NCBI GenBank assembly: GCA_026986785.1
Contig: JALSNW010000032.1
Coordinates: 1 to 33,505, forward strand
Origin: Deltaproteobacteria bacterium
Lineage (GTDB): Bacteria > Desulfobacterota > Dissulfuribacteria > Dissulfuribacterales > QOAL01
Direction of reading: 5' to 3'
DNA length: 33,505 bases
How positions within the stretch are numbered: the stretch's first letter is position 1; each line of letters opens with the position of its first letter. A program made the position numbers and the translations under genes. The notes beneath the pieces are model-generated. The model did not search any database and was not told where the DNA came from. It saw only the letters and a program-made list of their open reading frames with translations. Shown piece by piece: positions 315-33,505 of this stretch.

Positions 315-1427
315 ATGTTCTTCAAAAAAACCACATTGGCCTTTTGTGCCCTTTTGTGTTGTCTGCTATTGTATTCTTGTCACAGGCAGAGGCCAGCCCT
401 GAAGATAGGCATGGTAGTGAATCTAAGTGGGATTGGAGGGGCAGGAGGAGAGCATTGCCGAAACGGTGTACTCCTGGCAATAAAGGAGATAAATGAGGCA
501 GGTGGTATCCGGGGCAGACCTGTGGAGCTCTTGGTGAGAGATGACCAAGGCACTATCCAAGGGGCAATCAAGGCAGATATGGAACTTATTGCCCAGGGTG
601 TACCTGTGATCATCGGACACAATCGGTCGTCCACAACCCTTGCTGCCTATCCAATAATAACCTCCAGGGACATCCTCCTTATTACTGCCTGTTCGGCTAC
701 GACGAGACTTAGCGGTAAAGAAGACCTGTTTTTCAGGACTTGTGTGGATTGCGGTCTCTATGGCAGAAAGAGTTCCAAGTTGCTCGAGGGAAAAGGGGTG
801 GCAACTTTGGCACTGCTTATGGATATGGCCAATCCTGGTTTTGTCACCGATTATGCCTCTGCTGTCCAAAGGTATTTCAGTGGACAGGTCTATCAAGTCC
901 ATTTTAAATCGGGTTCTGGTGTAGACTGGGACGAGATAATCCATGATTTGCTTCTCCATGAGCCAGATGCGGTCATGCTTCTCACAGAGGCAACAATGAC
1001 GGGTATTGCCCTGCAGAAACTTAAGGCAGCAGGCTACAAGGGGTTGCGGCTTGCAAGTCTATGGGCGCAGATGCCTGAATTGCTTCAATATGCATCAGAA
1101 GCTGGGGAAGACCTGTCTATCATCACTTATATAAATCCTGAACTCAATTCATCCAGGTTCGAGATGTTTAAACAAAAGATGAGCTCAGCCTTTCATGAGG
1201 AGGCCAACGCCCGTTCTGCCGCCTTTTATGAGCTTATGATGATACTTGCCCACGCTTTGGACAAGGCAAAGGCCATGTCAGGACCAGGAATTGCAAGCGC
1301 CCTCATCTCAGAAAGGTATGAGGGATTGATGGGTATGTTATCTTTCGACAAGTATGGTGACGTGATAAGGCCTGTATATGAGGTGACCATAAAAAAAGGA
1401 AGGTTTGTGCTGGAACGGAAGATATAG
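315..1427 (+). CDS. branched-chain amino acid-type periplasmic binding lipoprotein (Peripla_BP_6)
   Basis: This is a 370-residue extracytoplasmic solute-binding protein of the LivJ/LivK (type I periplasmic binding) fold. A short basic N-terminus and hydrophobic stretch lead to the lipobox LLYSC, with the lipidated cysteine near residue 22, so the mature protein should be membrane anchored. The family signature follows: LKIGMVVNLSGIGG, NGVLLAIKEINEAGGIRG, then PVIIGHNRSSTTLAAYPI. The ATG at 315 has a GGGGGA ribosome site about 8 bases upstream. No permease or ATPase genes are present. The next gene, a hybrid sensor kinase, starts at the base after this stop codon, so the protein more likely acts as a ligand-sensing partner for that kinase than as a transporter subunit. 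The ligand is unknown. Confidence 0.88.
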   Translation: MFFKKTTLAFCALLCCLLLYSCHRQRPALKIGMVVNLSGIGGAGGEHCRNGVLLAIKEINEAGGIRGRPVELLVRDDQGTIQGAIKADMELIAQGVPVIIGHNRSSTTLAAYPIITSRDILLITACSATTRLSGKEDLFFRTCVDCGLYGRKSSKLLEGKGVATLALLMDMANPGFVTDYASAVQRYFSGQVYQVHFKSGSGVDWDEIIHDLLLHEPDAVMLLTEATMTGIALQKLKAAGYKGLRLASLWAQMPELLQYASEAGEDLSIITYINPELNSSRFEMFKQKMSSAFHEEANARSAAFYELMMILAHALDKAKAMSGPGIASALISERYEGLMGMLSFDKYGDVIRPVYEVTIKKGRFVLERKI

Positions 1428-4347
1428 TTGAACAACCATTCTCTAAACAGAAGGTTAACATCAGTACTTTTGTGGTTTGCCATACCTGCGGGGCTGGCTA
1501 TGTTGGTTTTTGCCGGGGTAATGGAATACAATTCCTTGATGGAATCTATTGCCAGGGCTGTCAGGGGCAGGTTGGGTGTGGCTGCAGACTTAGTCAGGAC
1601 GCGGATTCTGTGTGACTGCATAGTAAATGATATAAAAAAACGATGTGGATGCCCTTTTCAAAAAGGGGAAAAGGGTATATCTGAGGAAGGATGGAGGTCA
1701 TTATCCCAGGTGTATTCTTTGGTATGTACTCGATGATTCGGGTAAGGTTGTACTCATACCCCAAAAATATAATTCCTTCCTGGGGGTAGATTTCAGCAAG
1801 GTCTTTGCAAACGGATTCAAGGATAGTCCCCATCATTATCAATCTATCCTTACTGGCCGTTCAGTGGTAGGTATGCTCTATCCCATTGATGGCAATTTTT
1901 CCCTTGTGGTGGAAAGGGATTTGGTCGATATAATCCCTGCCATACGATATTTCACTACCAATAGGATCCTTCCCCAGGAAGAGATATTCGTATTGTCGGC
2001 AACAGGCAGGGCCATCTATCATCCAGATGAAAAGATCGTACGGACCAGGGAAAATCTCGCCTTTGAGATGGGAGACCAACAGGGGCCAGATAGGTATGGA
2101 TTCATTACATACAGTTCTGGGAACAAAAAATATCTATCCATGTCCAGGCCCTTTGCAGTACCAGCTCAGTGGCGCATCTACTATACCCTTCCCATGGATG
2201 TCATCCATAGGCATATGCAGATGCCTTTGCTGCTGCATCTTTCCATGCTGCTTGGGATATTTGGTATCATATTTCTTCTGTTGTGGTTTTCTCTTAATAG
2301 GTTCTTTTCTCGCCCTGTGAAGAAGTTGGTAGAGGCTGTAGAGAGGCGCCAGATCCATGAGGAAGCTCCCCTTGATGCCCAACTTGCCGGCGGTATAAAG
2401 GAATTGGATCATATCCTTCAGGCCATAAATACCAGGGATACAAGGGTGAGCAGGGCGGCTGAGCAACTGAAGGCCATTCTCAACAGTATGGATGCCAGGG
2501 TTTATGTGGGTGATATGGATAGTTACGAACTCCTCTTTGTAAACGACAGGATAAGGCAGGAGGTAGGAGATGTGGTGGGCCAGAGATGTTACCTGGCCCT
2601 GCACCCCGGGCAGGAGGCTCCATGTACATTCTGTACCAACAACGTGCTCGTAGACAGGCATGGACGCCCTAAAGGGGTCCATATCTGGGAATACGAAGAT
2701 AAAGCAAGTAAGAGGTGGTACGAGTGTAGGGACAGGGCCATTCCTTGGACAGACGGTCGACTCGTGCGTATAGAGATATCGACTGACATTACCTGGAGAA
2801 AGGAGATAGAAAAGGCCATCTTCACGGAGAAAGAACGGCTTGCCGTCACATTGGCTTCTATTGGAGACGGGGTGATCACTACAGATACCAAACAGAAAAT
2901 AGTGTTGATGAACCCGGTAGCCGAAGAGATCACAGGCTGGAGCCAGGATGAGGCAAGGGGCACGACCTTTTTCCAGGTGGTGCAATTGTTGGATCAGGGG
3001 AGGGGAAGGGCGGTGGATAGCCCTGTGAGAATAGCCATAGATACCGGGGAAATAATCAGTCTGGACAAGGAATGCATCCTGGTGAGAAAAGATGGCACGA
3101 GATGCAATGTTTCTGACAGTGCTGCCCCCATATTTGACAGAGATGGATCGATAATCGGTGCCGTTGTGGTCTTTAGGGATATCACCAAGGAGCTTCTAAC
3201 TCAGCAGGAGCTCTTGAAGATGAAAAAGCTTGAGACAGTAGGGGTGCTGGCTGGAGGTATCGCTCATGATTTCAATAACATAATATCGGCCATAATGGGG
3301 AATATAGAGCTTGCACAATATCCCATGGAGCCGTCCAGTGAATCTTACCGGCAGCTTGACAATGCAATAAAGGCCTGCCATAGGGCCCATGAGATTGCCC
3401 TTCAGCTACTGACCTTTTCCAAAGGGGGACGCCCGATAAAGAAATGTACGCCTATCCCTCGCCTTATAAAGGAGTCTGCCGATTTTGTTCTGCACGGCAG
3501 CAAGGTGATCTGTTCCTATTTGTTCCAGGAGAATCTTTGGATGGTGCATGTAGATCAGGGCCAGATAGGGCAGGTTGTTCAAAATTTGGTATTGAACAGC
3601 ATACATGCCATGCCCAATGGGGGAGAGCTGAACATCTCGTGTTCCAATTGTAGAGAACCATCTGTCTTGGAAAAATTCAACCTTCCACCAGGCAAGTTCG
3701 TCAGAGTGGACATATCGGATACAGGCAGCGGGATCCCTGACGAAATCATAGACAAGATATTCGAGCCCTATTTTTCTACCAAGCATACTGGAAGCGGTCT
3801 TGGACTTGCCATTGTCCACTCTATAGTGTCGAAACACGGAGGGGCGGTTGGGGTTAGCTCCACAGGGGATGAAGGTACGACATTTTCCATCTTTCTGCCT
3901 GTATGTGAAAAGAACCCTCACTCTGCATCAGATATTGTCCACGAGGAGAAGAAAAGGTTGTCACATGGCTCCTTAGTCCTTGTGATGGATGATGATCAGA
4001 TGGTCAGAGGGCTTGCGATTCAGATCTTGAAAGTATTGGGACACGAAGCCATTGAGGCAAAAGATGGTAGACAGGCCATAGAGATTTACAGGCAAAGGCT
4101 TGAGGCAGGGAAGAGAGTGGATCTGTTGATAATGGATCTAACCATACCTGGTGGTATGGGTGGGGTAGAGGCAATAAATGAATTGTTGAGGATAGACTCC
4201 AAGGTCAAGGCAGTCGTGGCAAGCGGCTATTCAAACGATCCGGTCATGTCGGATTTTGAGAGATATGGTTTCAAGGCAGCCTTGTTGAAGCCTTATTCAA
4301 TCAAGGAACTGGGGGACATAATCAACTTTGTAAAGAGGCAGGCATGA
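1428..4347 (+). CDS. membrane hybrid sensor histidine kinase, frameshifted near the N-terminus
   Basis: As read, the gene is split. A TTG-started frame (1428-1736) encodes one transmembrane helix and the start of a sensor domain, then stops. The rest (about 1645-4347) is in the +1 frame. Removing one A from the A7 run at 1634-1640 joins both into about 972 residues. The order is TM1 (about 12-33), an extracytoplasmic Cache-like sensor, TM2 (about 264-288), a HAMP-like linker, two PAS domains, HisKA with GGIAHDFNN (His near nt 3265), HATPase_c with DTGSGIPDEI and GSGLGLAIVHS, and a C-terminal receiver with phosphoacceptor in LLIMDLTIPGG. The GTG at 1645 has no ribosome site, so independent initiation is unlikely. 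TTG directly follows the TAG of the binding-protein gene, suggesting coupled expression and joint sensing. Function depends on whether the shift is real. Confidence 0.82.
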
Positions 4348-5690: not shown

Positions 5691-6634
5691 TGATGTATCT
5701 TCTGTGCCCCAGGGGCACGCTGGTCTATGAGAAAATTGTTGCCCTCCATGGCCTTCACCTTTTTCTTTAGGGCTGCTGCAGTGGAGGCAACCTCACCGTA
5801 ATGACTATAACGTCCTGGTTCACAAGGTACCACTGCTATGGAGAGGCTGGTTAGAGGGAATGTTTTGGTATTGCCCTGGCGGTCTTTTGAGACAAAATGG
5901 CCTGCCTCGATATCGGCTTCATCCAAGAAGAGTGGTATTAGGGCAGAAAAATTTGTCAGTATCTCTTTGCAGATGGTCTCTATCTTCTCAAGGGGTACCA
6001 TGAATACAAAATCGTCTCCGCCTATGTGTCCTACAAAACCTTCATGGCCAGCATAGTCCTGTATGACATTGACGAGTATTCGAGAGACCATTCGAATCAC
6101 CTCATCACCCCTTGAGAAACCATACTTGTCATTATAGGGTTTGAAGTTGTCTATATCCACGTATGCTACTGCCCTGGCTTCTCTTTTCTCCAGCATGGTT
6201 TGGATGCTTTTCAATATAGACGAATTGCCTGGGAGTTTGGTAAGGGGGTTGTTGTCTGCAACCCTTCGTGACCTGGCAAGGGCAAGATCTATCCGTGTTA
6301 TGATCTCCTCGATGGAGGCATGTTCCGAGATCAGATCGTCCACAGGGTAATGGCCCCAGTCAAGTCCCACGGATAGATCCCTTTCGGACACCAGTAGTAT
6401 TATGGGCAAAAGTGCCAGTTGAAGATTGTTTTTGAGGGCCAGGATAACCTCCTTGTCCATGTGTCTATGGAGGCCTTTTTGGATAATGAGAAGATCCGGT
6501 GGGTCGGCGAGTATCCCCTCAAGGGATCTAGCCAGATCTGGATTGGCTACGATGGTGTGGCCTTTTGCCTCAAGGCAAAGTTTTTCATCTGCCCTCTTGA
6601 AATGATCAGGTGTGACCAGAGCTATTCGAGCCAT
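5687..6634 (-). CDS. GGDEF diguanylate cyclase with degenerate receiver domain
   Basis: The 315-residue protein has an N-terminal receiver-like fold (about 1-125) and a C-terminal GGDEF domain (about 135-300). The active-site motif is GGDDF, with the upstream metal/substrate segment VDIDNFKPYND, so cyclic-di-GMP synthesis is plausible. The receiver's usual phosphoacceptor position (LLIIQKGL) has Gln instead of Asp, so phosphorylation is unlikely. The RxxD inhibitory site expected just before GGDEF is not seen (HEGF instead). Start ATG at 6634 is preceded by AGGA, and the gene begins 8 bp after the HDOD gene. With that gene and the small gene at 7512 it forms a likely nucleotide-signalling group. 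Confidence 0.87.
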   Translation of the reverse strand: MARIALVTPDHFKRADEKLCLEAKGHTIVANPDLARSLEGILADPPDLLIIQKGLHRHMDKEVILALKNNLQLALLPIILLVSERDLSVGLDWGHYPVDDLISEHASIEEIITRIDLALARSRRVADNNPLTKLPGNSSILKSIQTMLEKREARAVAYVDIDNFKPYNDKYGFSRGDEVIRMVSRILVNVIQDYAGHEGFVGHIGGDDFVFMVPLEKIETICKEILTNFSALIPLFLDEADIEAGHFVSKDRQGNTKTFPLTSLSIAVVPCEPGRYSHYGEVASTAAALKKKVKAMEGNNFLIDQRAPGAQKIHQ

Positions 6635-6642
6635 TTTGTTTC

Positions 6643-7500
6643 CTAAGACTCTGTCCCTTCGTCTTTATGGATGTCCAGGGTGAAATCCTGCAGCTCTGCC
6701 AGTTTTTCATCCACTTCTTCAAGGATATGTGTCATGTCTTTCTTGCCAAACTTGATCCTATTCCAGGCATTGTGATCCAGGGGGGGGACCCACTTGTCGC
6801 CACCAAAGCCAAAGCCTAATGCCCTTATTAATATATCGGAAAAATGGATGATGGCAGAAATCTCCTTGTAATCTGGGGAAGCCTCGGGATTGTGATGATA
6901 TTCTATGGGATATACCAATCGTTCTGGTAGGTTCCATTGCCTTGCAAGTATGCCCCCGATCTCTCCATGGCCTATCCCCAGGGCCTCTTTTTCCACTTCA
7001 CGCATATATCTGTCCTGCTCACGGGCAGTCTCTACCACCTGTTCGTATTCTTCAGGCAATTCTGCCCTTAGTACTATCTTGCCAAGGTCGTGGATCAGTC
7101 CGGCAGTGGATACCTCTTCGGGGTTTTTGATGCCCAATTTTTTGGCCACGATGCCTGCTGCAGTAGCACAACCAAGGGAGTGCTCGAAAAGGCCTATGTC
7201 AGAGGATTGCATGACCTCGAATATGGACGATGTTACTATGAGTGTCTTTATGACATTGAAGCCAAGTAGAACTATGGCATTGGATACGGTGCTGATGCGT
7301 TGTGGAAAACCAAAAAAGGAAGAGTTCACCATCTTCAGGAGCTTACTGGTAAGCACCTGATCTTTTTCTATTATTCTACCTAATTTGACTGCAGTGACGT
7401 CTTCGTCAGAGACCATCTGGTTGAGCTTGGAAACAATGGGAGGCAATGTCGGAAGGGATTGAACATCTTTTAGACGTTGGCGGATTTCCTCCTTGTTCAT
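6643..7500 (-). CDS. HDOD domain signalling protein
   Basis: This 285-residue HDOD protein starts with the diagnostic LPTLPPIVSKLNQMVSDED segment and has KLLKMVNSSFFGFPQRIST and AIVLLGFNVIKTLI. Unlike many HDOD proteins it keeps metal-type HD residues (HSLGCATA, LIHDLGKI, GHGEIGG, EYHHNPE), so catalysis cannot be excluded, but no GYP motif is present. HDOD proteins usually act as output or scaffold modules in signalling, motility or stress pathways. The ATG at 7500 has an AGGAG ribosome site. The gene lies between the small N-domain protein and the GGDEF protein, in the same direction with very short gaps, which points to a shared operon. Confidence 0.9.
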   Translation of the reverse strand: MNKEEIRQRLKDVQSLPTLPPIVSKLNQMVSDEDVTAVKLGRIIEKDQVLTSKLLKMVNSSFFGFPQRISTVSNAIVLLGFNVIKTLIVTSSIFEVMQSSDIGLFEHSLGCATAAGIVAKKLGIKNPEEVSTAGLIHDLGKIVLRAELPEEYEQVVETAREQDRYMREVEKEALGIGHGEIGGILARQWNLPERLVYPIEYHHNPEASPDYKEISAIIHFSDILIRALGFGFGGDKWVPPLDHNAWNRIKFGKKDMTHILEEVDEKLAELQDFTLDIHKDEGTES

Positions 7501-28186: not shown

Positions 28187-28280
<94 letters not shown>

Positions 28281-28351
28281 TTATTGATTCTTTTGTATTG
28301 ACTGAAAAGAGGTAATAAGGGTATAAGATTAACCCTGTTTCATAATATCCA

Positions 28352-28442
<91 letters not shown>

Positions 28443-28460
28443 TTTGCCAGAGACCTTTTT

Positions 28461-28562
28461 GATAGCCGGGTCCTGCGCAACGAAATCCCGCGAACCCCGC
28501 CAGGTCCGGAAGGAAGCAACGGTAGTGGGACCCTTCGTGTGCCGCAGGGGTGCCTGGCTATC
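28461..28562 (+). ncRNA. ffs: bacterial small signal recognition particle RNA (4.5S)
   Basis: This is the RNA of the SRP, which binds Ffh for co-translational membrane targeting. The conserved helix-8 segment AGGTCCGGAAGGAAGCA (28502-28518) with its GGAA tetraloop is diagnostic. The ends pair as GATAGCC/GGCTATC. About 100 bases is the normal short form without an Alu domain. It lies 18 bases after tRNA-Ser(GGA) and 35 before dnaX. Confidence 0.96.
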
Positions 28563-30648: not shown

Positions 30649-31254
30649 ATGTCAAAATCAATGCCTCCAGCCCTTGAAAGGCTGGTCAATAATCTGATGC
30701 GTTTGCCTGGGATTGGAGAAAAGAGCGCCACAAGATTGGCCCTTCAGATACTCAGATGGCCATCGGCCCAGGCCAGGGAATTGGCCGATTCCATAGCAAT
30801 GCTCCACGATTGCATAGGCCTTTGTTCCAGGTGTTTTACGTTTTCGGAGAAAGATCCTTGTTCGGTTTGCAGTGATCCCAAAAGAGATTCCTCTGTCATC
30901 TGTGTGGTGGAAGAGCCAGGTGATGTCCTTGCCATGGAAAAGGCCGGTTGCTTTAATGGCATTTACCATGTGCTCCAAGGGGTGCTTGCGCCAATGGATG
31001 GTATTGGTCCTGAACAGCTGAAGATCAAAGAACTTCTAAAAAGGCTGGAAACAGAGGAGATAGATGAGGTGATTATTGCAACCAGCAGTACTGCATCCGG
31101 TGAGGCTACTGCAAGTTATCTTTCACAGGTCATTTCAGAGGCAGGTGTCAAGGCCTCCAGGATAGCCTGTGGGATTCCCATGGGCACAGATCTCAAATAT
31201 GCTGACCAGTTGACCCTCAAAAAGGCCATGGAGTTCAGGACCAATATCTCTTGA
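30649..31254 (+). CDS. recR: recombination protein RecR
   Basis: RecR works with RecF and RecO in gap repair and RecA loading. At 201 residues the length is normal. The helix-hairpin-helix MRLPGIGEKSATRLAL, the zinc finger CSRCFTFSEKDPCSVC and the Toprim domain (VVEEPGDVLAMEKAG) are present. The usual motif ATNPTxEGEATA reads ATSSTASGEATASYL. The stop codon overlaps the first base of the dispersed repeat. Confidence 0.95.
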   Translation: MSKSMPPALERLVNNLMRLPGIGEKSATRLALQILRWPSAQARELADSIAMLHDCIGLCSRCFTFSEKDPCSVCSDPKRDSSVICVVEEPGDVLAMEKAGCFNGIYHVLQGVLAPMDGIGPEQLKIKELLKRLETEEIDEVIIATSSTASGEATASYLSQVISEAGVKASRIACGIPMGTDLKYADQLTLKKAMEFRTNIS

Positions 31255-31337
31255 ACCCGGATTATACATTCCAAGCTTGTCGAAGAGGAGATAAGGGATC
31301 GCTTTTCCCAGGCGTTTGAAGTGTATAGTCCTGGTTC
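31254..31337. repeat. dispersed repeat copy B with terminal inverted repeats
   Basis: The left end GAACCCGGATTATACATTCC and the right end GTTTGAAGTGTATAGTCCTG pair as imperfect termini, about 19 of 24 bases. Shared ends and the internal CAAGCTTG match copy A at 15879-15991. The element begins on the recR stop codon. It could also fold into a hairpin in the recR transcript. Confidence 0.7.
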
Positions 31338-31638
31338 AGGGTTCTGCCCTGAAGAAAATGCCAAGAGCAATACCCTTATGGTTTTTATGCCGATTTTCCA
31401 TGTCTATTTCGAAATTGTGTAAGTATTCCTGAAATAACCCCTTGTTTTTTGTCCTTTCTTAAAGTTAAGTCTGTTTGTTCTTTTATTATTTCTGTTGATA
31501 AAATAATCCAGGGTGTTATTGATTGTTGCATAATATCCAGGGGGCTGATTATAGGTACGCATCTTGCAGGTAAGAATCTGTATTTGGATGAGCTTCTGGA
31601 TATAATCGTGGGGTTGGGTACATGAAATTGCTGGTTTG

Positions 31639-31662
31639 ACAATGCCCTTGGGCATGTTTTTT
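31639..31662 (+). terminator. intrinsic terminator-like hairpin in the leader
   Basis: ACA-a-TGCC pairs with GGCA-TGT around the loop CTTG, with one bulged A, followed by five T. It lies only 16 bases before the start codon of the membrane protein, so it may act as an attenuator rather than as the end of recR transcription. Confidence 0.45.
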
Positions 31663-31676
31663 CAGGGAGAACCCTG
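31663..31676 (+). promoter_or_regulatory. hairpin that masks the Shine-Dalgarno site
   Basis: CAGGG-AGAA-CCCTG is a perfect 5-bp stem with a 4-base loop. It contains the AGGGAG ribosome site for the ATG at 31679, so the folded form should lower translation. Confidence 0.45.
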
Positions 31677-31678
31677 TC

Positions 31679-32500
31679 ATGAAGAAGATGGATCTATTGT
31701 TTGCGGTCCTGTTGGTAGCGTCTGTTGGCTCCTTTTTCTGGGGATACGACATAGGGGATTTCACATTTTCACAGATCCACAATCATCTATATTTTCAGGC
31801 CTGGATAAGTCTAGCCACCATTATTCTGTCCGTTCTTCTGGCCGGTGCCACTGCATCTATCTATAAGTTCACCCGGCTGGAGACATTCAGGCTGGTTCCT
31901 GCAGCATTGTTGGTTTTTAGCCTGGGGATGATTCCCATAGGTTTTCACAACAGTTATTGCAAGGTATGCAGTGATCTCGGCTTTTGTGGTACAGCCCATA
32001 ATTATCCAGATATAATCACCATTATTGCCATCTATATATCTACCTCCATCTATGTGTTGTCTGAGTCAGCAATCAAGGACGTTGGCAGGGCCCTTAAAAA
32101 ACTCTGGAGGGCATTGATAATAGCCCTTGCTGCCATCATAGCTGTGATGTTGGTAAGCCTTTTTTACATGCAATTACCAGAACCCATACCCTATAAGTCG
32201 GCAAGGATAAATCCCCAGGGAATCGTATTCTTGTCCGTATCGATTTTTTCCATGGTAGCCGGCATCGTATATGTCTTGAGATACCGTCAGACAGGTAACA
32301 AGGCTCTTGAGGGAGTCTGCATACAATTCATAGTCACAGGCCTTGTCCAACTGATAGCTGCCTATCACATCTTCACCTGCTACTGGTGTAACGTGGAAGA
32401 ATGCTCGGAGTTTTTTGTTATAGGAGGGTTGTTCATACTCGTAAGTATGTATCTTTTATGGCGTTCTTATCTACCCCTGTTGAGCCGGTCCTTGCAATAG
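31679..32500 (+). CDS. polytopic membrane protein with two cysteine clusters
   Basis: This 273-residue protein has about eight hydrophobic helices. Two loops are cysteine-rich: CKVCSDLGFCGTAHNYPD (C-x2-C-x5-C) and CYWCNVEEC (C-x2-C-x4-C). I do not recognise the family. The pattern would suit redox or metal sensing, or a thiol-disulfide membrane protein. The next gene, a sensor kinase, begins 10 bases after its stop with its ribosome site overlapping the stop codon, so the two are co-expressed. It may be a membrane sensing partner of that kinase. Confidence 0.75.
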   Translation: MKKMDLLFAVLLVASVGSFFWGYDIGDFTFSQIHNHLYFQAWISLATIILSVLLAGATASIYKFTRLETFRLVPAALLVFSLGMIPIGFHNSYCKVCSDLGFCGTAHNYPDIITIIAIYISTSIYVLSESAIKDVGRALKKLWRALIIALAAIIAVMLVSLFYMQLPEPIPYKSARINPQGIVFLSVSIFSMVAGIVYVLRYRQTGNKALEGVCIQFIVTGLVQLIAAYHIFTCYWCNVEECSEFFVIGGLFILVSMYLLWRSYLPLLSRSLQ

Positions 32501-32510
32501 GAGGCGTGCC

Positions 32511-33505
32511 TTGAAAGAGGGTCTAAGGGGCGAGATAATCCGGGCTTTTCTCCTGGTGTCATTTCTGCCCACAGCTCTTATCTTTATCTTCCTGACTACT
32601 TCCACATGGTTGATGATGCGTAAACATGCCCAGCAGGACCTGGAAGAACAAAGTAAGCTCATGGCCTTGTTGGTAATGGAGAGCTTGAAAGACAGAACGG
32701 CTGGTTATGACTATGGATATATGAAAAACCTCACTAAGGAGATATGGAAAAGGTGTAGTAAAAAAGTAACAATAGTGGATAAGAAAGACGTCATAATAGC
32801 GTCTTCAAACTCGGAGCAACCTGGTAGAAAGTACCCCCTGAACATATGGGATAAGGTCCGGGCCTTTCGTGAACACAATGCAGGGGGCAAAAACAATGTT
32901 CCTGCCTTTGTCTGTAGTGCCGCCTTCGGTCCAGCAAAGAGGTTACTTATAGTTCCATTCTTTGATGGTGCTGGAAAGTATGCTGGGGCAATAATTTCCG
33001 ATTACAATCTTGCCGGCTCTGGGGCCATCTATGTCTTGAAACACCTATTCCTATTCTGGGCAGTGATGCTGGTTTGCATCCTGACCATGGCCACGATTTA
33101 TGCCCTCTATTTCTCATACAAACTCATGGAGCCGGTGGACGCCTTGAAAAAAGGTGCAGAGGCAGTGGGTAGAGGTGATTTGTCATTCAGGGTGGAGATG
33201 AGTTGTCGTAACGAGTTTGCCCTCCTGGCAGAGACATTCAACTGGATGACTTCACGGTTGAAGAAGAGTTATGATAGCCTCTCCGATCTGTCAGCCTACC
33301 TGAGCACCGTCCTTGATACCATGGGGTCCATGGTCTTTGTGATAGACGAGCAAGGAATAATAGAGGCAGTGAACAAGACTGTGACTGGCCTACTTGGATA
33401 TACTAAAGACGAACTTATAGGCACAGAGATATGCGAGATAGCCAGTAGGCAGTTTTGGGGGAATGGCGATTCTCATGTAGAAGAAAATAGTATGAGCAAA
33501 TGTTC
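32511..33505 (+). CDS. membrane sensor kinase, N-terminal part, cut by the window edge
   Basis: The open frame runs from TTG 32511 to the window end (331 codons). AGGAGG at 32499-32504 lies 6 bases upstream, overlapping the stop of the membrane protein gene. Seen in order: TM1 (about 12-36), a short extracytoplasmic sensor (about 37-175), TM2 (about 180-205), HAMP (MEPVDALKKGAEAVGRGD to TFNWMTSRLKK) and the start of a PAS domain (VLDTMGSMVFVIDEQGIIEA, LLGYTKDELIG). The catalytic domains are expected beyond the edge; this is inference, since a diguanylate cyclase output is also possible. Confidence 0.85.
   Translation, partial: MKEGLRGEIIRAFLLVSFLPTALIFIFLTTSTWLMMRKHAQQDLEEQSKLMALLVMESLKDRTAGYDYGYMKNLTKEIWKRCSKKVTIVDKKDVIIASSNSEQPGRKYPLNIWDKVRAFREHNAGGKNNVPAFVCSAAFGPAKRLLIVPFFDGAGKYAGAIISDYNLAGSGAIYVLKHLFLFWAVMLVCILTMATIYALYFSYKLMEPVDALKKGAEAVGRGDLSFRVEMSCRNEFALLAETFNWMTSRLKKSYDSLSDLSAYLSTVLDTMGSMVFVIDEQGIIEAVNKTVTGLLGYTKDELIGTEICEIASRQFWGNGDSHVEENSMSKC

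Follow-up and report, generated by a model that had tools for sequence, protein, structure and literature searches.

An orphan eight-helix membrane protein with two Cys/His clusters, encoded next to a hybrid sensor kinase gene: a possible accessory sensor subunit

Background

Accessory membrane proteins that modulate sensor kinases from within the membrane have been described (PMC8534201, PMC8404706). One of them is MgrB, a protein of 47 amino acids whose gene is itself controlled by PhoQ/PhoP (PMC8534201), and which is described as answering the periplasmic redox state via two periplasmic cysteines that are required for its control of PhoQ (PMC8534201, PMC8404706). In the window analysed here, a stretch of 33,505 nucleotides that makes up one entire contig (C32) of a 2.59-Mb genome assembled in 52 contigs, an orphan membrane protein, which we call P, is encoded directly upstream of a sensor kinase. 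As in the MgrB-PhoQ pair, a separate membrane protein with (predicted) outward cysteines accompanies a kinase that has a periplasmic sensor domain of its own. P differs from MgrB in having eight helices, in grouping six cysteines into clusters and in being encoded right beside the kinase.

Two other kinds of polytopic sensor invite comparison. MHYT domains carry a repeated, possibly metal-ligating motif close to the outer side of the membrane, with copper among the metals, and in this they are like P, from which they differ in motif and in helix number; MHYT was absent among the Pfam matches of P. CO, O2 and NO are named for the MHYT sensor domain of CoxC (PMC11347149). MASE3 domains (PF17159; NF047874) share with P a polytopic build, a signalling context and a histidine after the third helix, yet P stands alone rather than being fused to the kinase and falls below every curated cut-off, and the canonical MASE3 domains compared have neither of the two cysteine triads of P. 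As for the partner kinase, it resembles WalK-type kinases (NF033092) in its membrane helices, outer domain, HAMP and PAS, but departs from them by a further PAS, by a receiver at its C-terminus and by a score far below the WalK cut-off. No P-like protein is described in the titles and abstract openings of the papers listed by a full-text literature search.

Organisation of the locus

The last genes of the window before P are a dnaX-type gene, ybaB and recR (Table 1). Two tRNA genes and a small SRP RNA are found immediately 5' of the dnaX-type gene, at 28187-28562. The spacer between recR and P shows short open stretches in two frames when inspected by eye, which may represent a decayed small gene, and blastn of this spacer against the other loci examined returned two short weak matches only (E 0.003 and 0.039). 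The region has 3 terminator-like sites where shuffles have 1.6 on average, a difference that is not significant.

Table 1. Coordinates of the features at the locus (positions of the window unless a contig is named)
Feature	Position	Strand	Basis or remark
recR	30649-31254		family search
spacer between recR and P, 424 bp	31255-31678	.	weak terminator-like hairpin at 31642-31655
P, orphan membrane protein with eight helices, 273 aa, ATG start	31679-32500	+	ORF, hydropathy, low-confidence model
first Cys3His cluster, H90-x3-C94-x2-C97-x5-C103	31946-31987	+	between helices 3 and 4
second Cys3His cluster, H230-x3-C234-x2-C237-x4-C242	32366-32404	+	between helices 7 and 8
AGGAGG	32499-32504	+	sequence; likely ribosome-binding site of the kinase gene
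hybrid sensor kinase, 5' part, 331 aa, cut by contig end	32511-33505	+	open-ended ORF, TTG start
Cache-like extracytoplasmic domain, about residues 33-175	32607-33035	+	weak sCache_3_2, E 0.015, under cut-off
HAMP of kinase, residues 203-251	33117-33263	+	PF00672, E 1.2e-8
first PAS of kinase (start; cut by contig end)	33297-33505	+	PF00989, E 4.3e-6; PF13188 from residue 263
kinase remainder	L010:13661-15484 (contig C28)	-	own-genome search

The initial annotation had proposed that the two genes are translationally linked, and the details of their junction bear this out: the stop codon of P (TAG, 32498-32500) is overlapped by the AGGAGG, and the TTG start of the kinase, at 32511, follows 6 nt after this motif and 10 nt downstream of P.

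The kinase runs off the end of the contig. In a search of its own genome, residues 276-331 matched the end of contig C28 at 98%, the ends of C32 and C28 overlapping over 170 bases with one difference, and the joined kinase would be of 882 amino acids (275+607). Its domains would then be ordered as Cache-like sensor, HAMP, two PAS (the further one on C28), HisKA, HATPase and receiver, with matches over cut-off to PF00512 (HisKA, 4.5e-7), PF02518 (HATPase_c, 2.9e-26) and PF00072 (receiver, 1.2e-17). Judged from these domains, the partner gene is a hybrid sensor histidine kinase. Residues 10-310 align with the WalK model NF033092 at E 1.1e-20, with 73.8 bits against a cut-off of 725. The sensor domain had been called small, which does not hold, as about 140 residues lie between the two membrane helices, an ordinary size. 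A low-confidence model of residues 1-206 (pLDDT 57.5) gives a long helix, a helix, two strands, a helix, three strands and a long helix, an order that we take to be that of Cache domains. The outer domain contains two cysteines, C82 and C135.

Insertion of the pair between recR and DUF456

recR was located in 38 of the 46 genomes of the order, and the stretch following it was taken in 14 of these 38 (4.0-8.7 kb each). Two genomes of the same genus, G001 and G002, carry a convergent DUF456 gene about 30 bp after recR; in a third one, 55% complete, recR was not found. Their DUF456 genes are 88% and 76% identical to the one that lies beyond the kinase on C28; in both genomes, as here, DUF456 is succeeded by cytochrome b and then Rieske genes, so that gene order supports the joining of C32 and C28. 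The remaining 12 stretches had no DUF456 match. Across all 14, P and both parts of the kinase gave no tblastn match at E<=0.01, and the second part of the kinase found weak blastp matches in the ORFs of four stretches (E 7e-6 to 4e-3), three of them to its receiver.

Since recR and DUF456 adjoin each other in G001 and G002, P and the kinase form a two-gene insertion that was gained here, or lost by the others, together and at one place. The pairing suggested in the initial annotation is therefore strengthened beyond adjacency, as the pair is a discrete two-gene insertion relative to two genomes of the same genus. Conservation of the gene pair fared otherwise: neither P nor kinase residues 1-206 had a match in any of the order's 45 other genomes, both being confined to the same single genome among the 46.

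Horizontal transfer of the pair was considered on compositional grounds and rejected. Windows that cover the pair do have a lower GC (0.43-0.46), but GC3 is 0.52 for both P and the kinase and thus equals that of the other genes (0.48-0.61 in eight others of the window), and the low GC is explained by the amino-acid make-up.

Topology and Cys/His clusters of P

An ORF for an eight-helix protein had been annotated at this position; the ORF is present and hydropathy agrees with eight helices, as does a single-sequence AlphaFold2 model of low confidence (pLDDT 55). The two cysteine motifs reported earlier, C-x2-C-x5-C (C94-C97-C103) and C-x2-C-x4-C (C234-C237-C242), are both exact. The first reading had left unmentioned that each triad is preceded, four residues ahead of its first cysteine, by a histidine (H90 and H230). 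With helix limits set by hand, the loops of P hold 12 lysines and arginines inside versus 3 outside, and therefore both cysteine loops should face the periplasm; all six triad cysteines are predicted outside. In the AlphaFold2 model, helix 3 passes through C94-C97, which at such model quality speaks neither way.

Two C-x2-C-x4/5-C motifs appeared in none of 100,000 composition shuffles of P, and at least one H-x3-C-x2-C-x4/5-C appeared in 7 of 100,000. The loci examined contain 154 polytopic ORFs, P included, and one ORF besides P has a single C-x2-C-x3-7-C. Each outer loop would offer ligands enough for one tetrahedral Cys3His site, and metal binding is what we infer from them. Redox or metal sensing would be compatible with Cys3His sets predicted to lie outside, and we have a weak preference for a metal over a pure thiol switch, because a histidine stands at the same place in both loops.

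The thiol switch itself deserves consideration. The cysteines of P might exchange disulfides with one another or with C82 and C135 of the kinase, and report the periplasmic redox state without any metal. The two CxxC pairs predicted outside, the two cysteines in the outer domain of the kinase and the precedent described for MgrB would all suit such a switch, but the histidine in front of each triad completes a Cys3His set that a pure switch does not need, and neither DsbB nor VKOR thiol oxidoreductases were among the five Pfam matches of P up to E 10. We regard this explanation as rather unlikely.

A repeated motif raises the question of an internal duplication of four plus four helices, which was rejected. 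The gapped score of one half against the other (35) was reached by 1088 of 3000 class-preserving shuffles, and by 1296 of 3000 when the cysteines were kept fixed; the best ungapped diagonal was reached by 217 of 1000 (263 of 1000 with cysteines fixed). Only the motif repeats between the two halves, and a duplication is unsupported.

Search for relatives of P

P had been described as unrecognised, and so it remains: nothing in Pfam, NCBIfam, PHROGs or the PDB sequences passed a curated cut-off with it or gave a convincing E-value, the best PDB-sequence match having an E of 2.2. A clear match to an enzyme family unrelated to signalling, which would have told against the proposed role, did not appear. 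A fold search with the models of P (pLDDT 55) and of kinase residues 1-206 (57.5) gave no match at E<=0.001, the models being too poor for this to count.

At E<=0.001, P was matched by its own genome alone among 99 related genomes, and it had no match in the other 45 genomes of its order; kinase residues 1-206 were likewise matched by their own genome alone among the order's 46. In the phylum (395 genomes, overlapping the 99), the same threshold returned the own genome and one other at 5.9e-4, the latter lying opposite an FrdA-like frame as judged by eye. Weak matches to P covered 29 places in 28 genomes besides its own (E 5.9e-4 to 0.74), and the ORFs were read by eye, without a family scan, at 11 of the 29 (at L025 on the wrong strand only). 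Apart from the FrdA-like case, the matches at the 11 comprised an aminotransferase-like gene, part of a sugar-transferase-like gene that has membrane helices, and further frames that were alternative or opposite to a gene. None of the 11 loci looked P-like, and the weak matches are taken as chance.

Beyond the phylum, P was found neither in 395 genomes of the phylum of G424 (reached by way of a contig labelled Nitrospirae) nor in eight genomes reached via loci of a two-cluster pattern search, both being weak negatives as no positive is known there; in plasmids there was no match at E<=1. Exact 8-residue patterns of P were absent from the genome_contigs collection, a scan that is insensitive to distant relatives. 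Both clusters at their fixed spacing occurred in at least 118 stretches of this collection, and of 120 pattern matches read, five were open in frame, all of them Cys-rich low-complexity or hydrophilic; this search, too, is insensitive to distant relatives and would miss any with another spacing. In the genomes searched, no homologue was found against which the cysteines and histidines could be compared.

One family that came up was rejected. P scored 19.6 and 21.6 bits with the ABZJ_00895 family (NF038216; E 6.6e-4), below the cut-off of 33, and was the best match of this family in its own genome, the next having 9.4 bits. Yet in another order, 4 of 76 genomes had best matches that were likewise under the cut-off and about as high (21.4-27.2 bits), and among 14 control genomes 2 matched at E<=0.001, none over cut-off; an equal level in unrelated genomes marks the match as noise.

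P could also be an enzyme or a transporter, such as a thiol oxidoreductase or a carrier of a metal or small molecule, that is merely co-transcribed with the kinase or whose substrate is monitored by the Cache-like domain. Eight helices and CxxC pairs fit either kind of protein, and some kinases work with transporters, as described for the Bce systems (PMC8534201). Against this, no family match of P passed a cut-off, and we consider an enzyme or transporter distinctly improbable.

Resemblance to MASE3

A further possibility is that P is a far-diverged, detached MASE3-like sensor that responds to a membrane-soluble ligand, its cysteines merely bracing the loops. An HMM built from 27 MASE3 domains, a subset of those found, aligned with P collinearly over residues 36-263 at 8.0 bits, a score as high as this being obtained with 9 of 3000 class-preserving shuffles, and placed H90 beside the conserved histidine of the model. 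When the 154 polytopic ORFs were ranked by this HMM, 36 from MASE3 loci came first and P directly under them, above the other 117. The NCBIfam model MASE3_PAS_HK matched P at E 0.036 over residues 29-262. A stand-alone MASE3 protein of like size (263 amino acids, over cut-off) exists in another genome of the phylum (L206:5199-5990), and among four divergent MASE3 kinases of one genus (g39), three (L064, L065 and L067, not L066) have a C-x2-C-x2-C within the final loop of their sensor domain. However, PF17159 (gathering cut-off 31 bits) had no match to P at E<=10, a one-to-one hhalign of P and MASE3 gave E 0.024 with a probability of 2%, and the next, unrelated ORF in the ranking reached 7.2 bits against the 8.0 of P. 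The resemblance is marginal, a lead rather than membership, and that P is such a detached sensor seems quite unlikely. The stand-alone MASE3 gene overlaps a gene of TauE/SafE sulfite-exporter type (5987-6886).

Proposed role of P

Our tentative reading, to which we give somewhat less than an even chance, is that P is an accessory subunit of the adjoining kinase, sensing metal or thiol state through its outer Cys3His loops. The eight helices would place the two loops at the periplasmic side of the inner membrane, where each Cys3His set, or both jointly, might bind a soft metal (zinc, copper or iron) or switch by thiol oxidation. Occupancy of the sets could then change how the helices of P pack against the kinase's two membrane helices, and the kinase would combine this input with the signal from its Cache-like domain and pass phosphate on via its receiver domain. 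The analysis shows the two genes with their coupling signals, the motifs, the predicted topology, the domain order of the kinase and the insertion of both genes together; physical contact between P and the kinase, the metal or thiol chemistry, the direction of the effect and the output are all inferred.

In favour of an accessory role are the coupled genes, the insertion of the pair as a unit between recR and DUF456 and the co-occurrence in a single genome, together with the two outer H-x3-C-x2-C-x4/5-C sets and the finding of no enzyme or transporter family over cut-off. Against it, the kinase, with a sensor domain of its own, has no obvious need of P, and the motifs might form structural disulfides. 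The quality of the model of P is too low for locating the clusters in space, and C94 and C97 lie within a helix in it; GC3 gives no sign of a joint recent transfer of the pair; and no homologue of P was found, hence no conserved Cys/His or conserved pair. The sensor idea is plausible, but it is drawn from one sequence.

A stronger form of the proposal, in our view unlikely, is that P founds a new family of stand-alone membrane sensor subunits which have two outer Cys3His metal sites and act within the membrane on a Cache-HAMP-PAS kinase. If this is true, a kinase already equipped with a ligand sensor would gain a metal or redox input, and P, as a detachable input of this type, would represent a modular route by which a second signal enters a two-component system, its ligand positions being simple enough for a mutational test. 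Without a known homologue, P remains one orphan gene in one genome.

Other membrane and sensor genes were noted in the same genome. Two adjacent membrane-protein genes lie at L010:4718-7274; the larger matches cytochrome bd oxidase subunit I (E 9.4e-8) and has a C-terminal CxxCH as for haem c, while for the smaller Pfam gave no match at E<=1e-5. At 315-4347 of the window, a binding protein of the branched-chain amino acid type (NF011933, under cut-off) is followed at a short distance by a large VirA/CckA-like hybrid kinase, and the two are a second candidate pair of accessory sensor and kinase.
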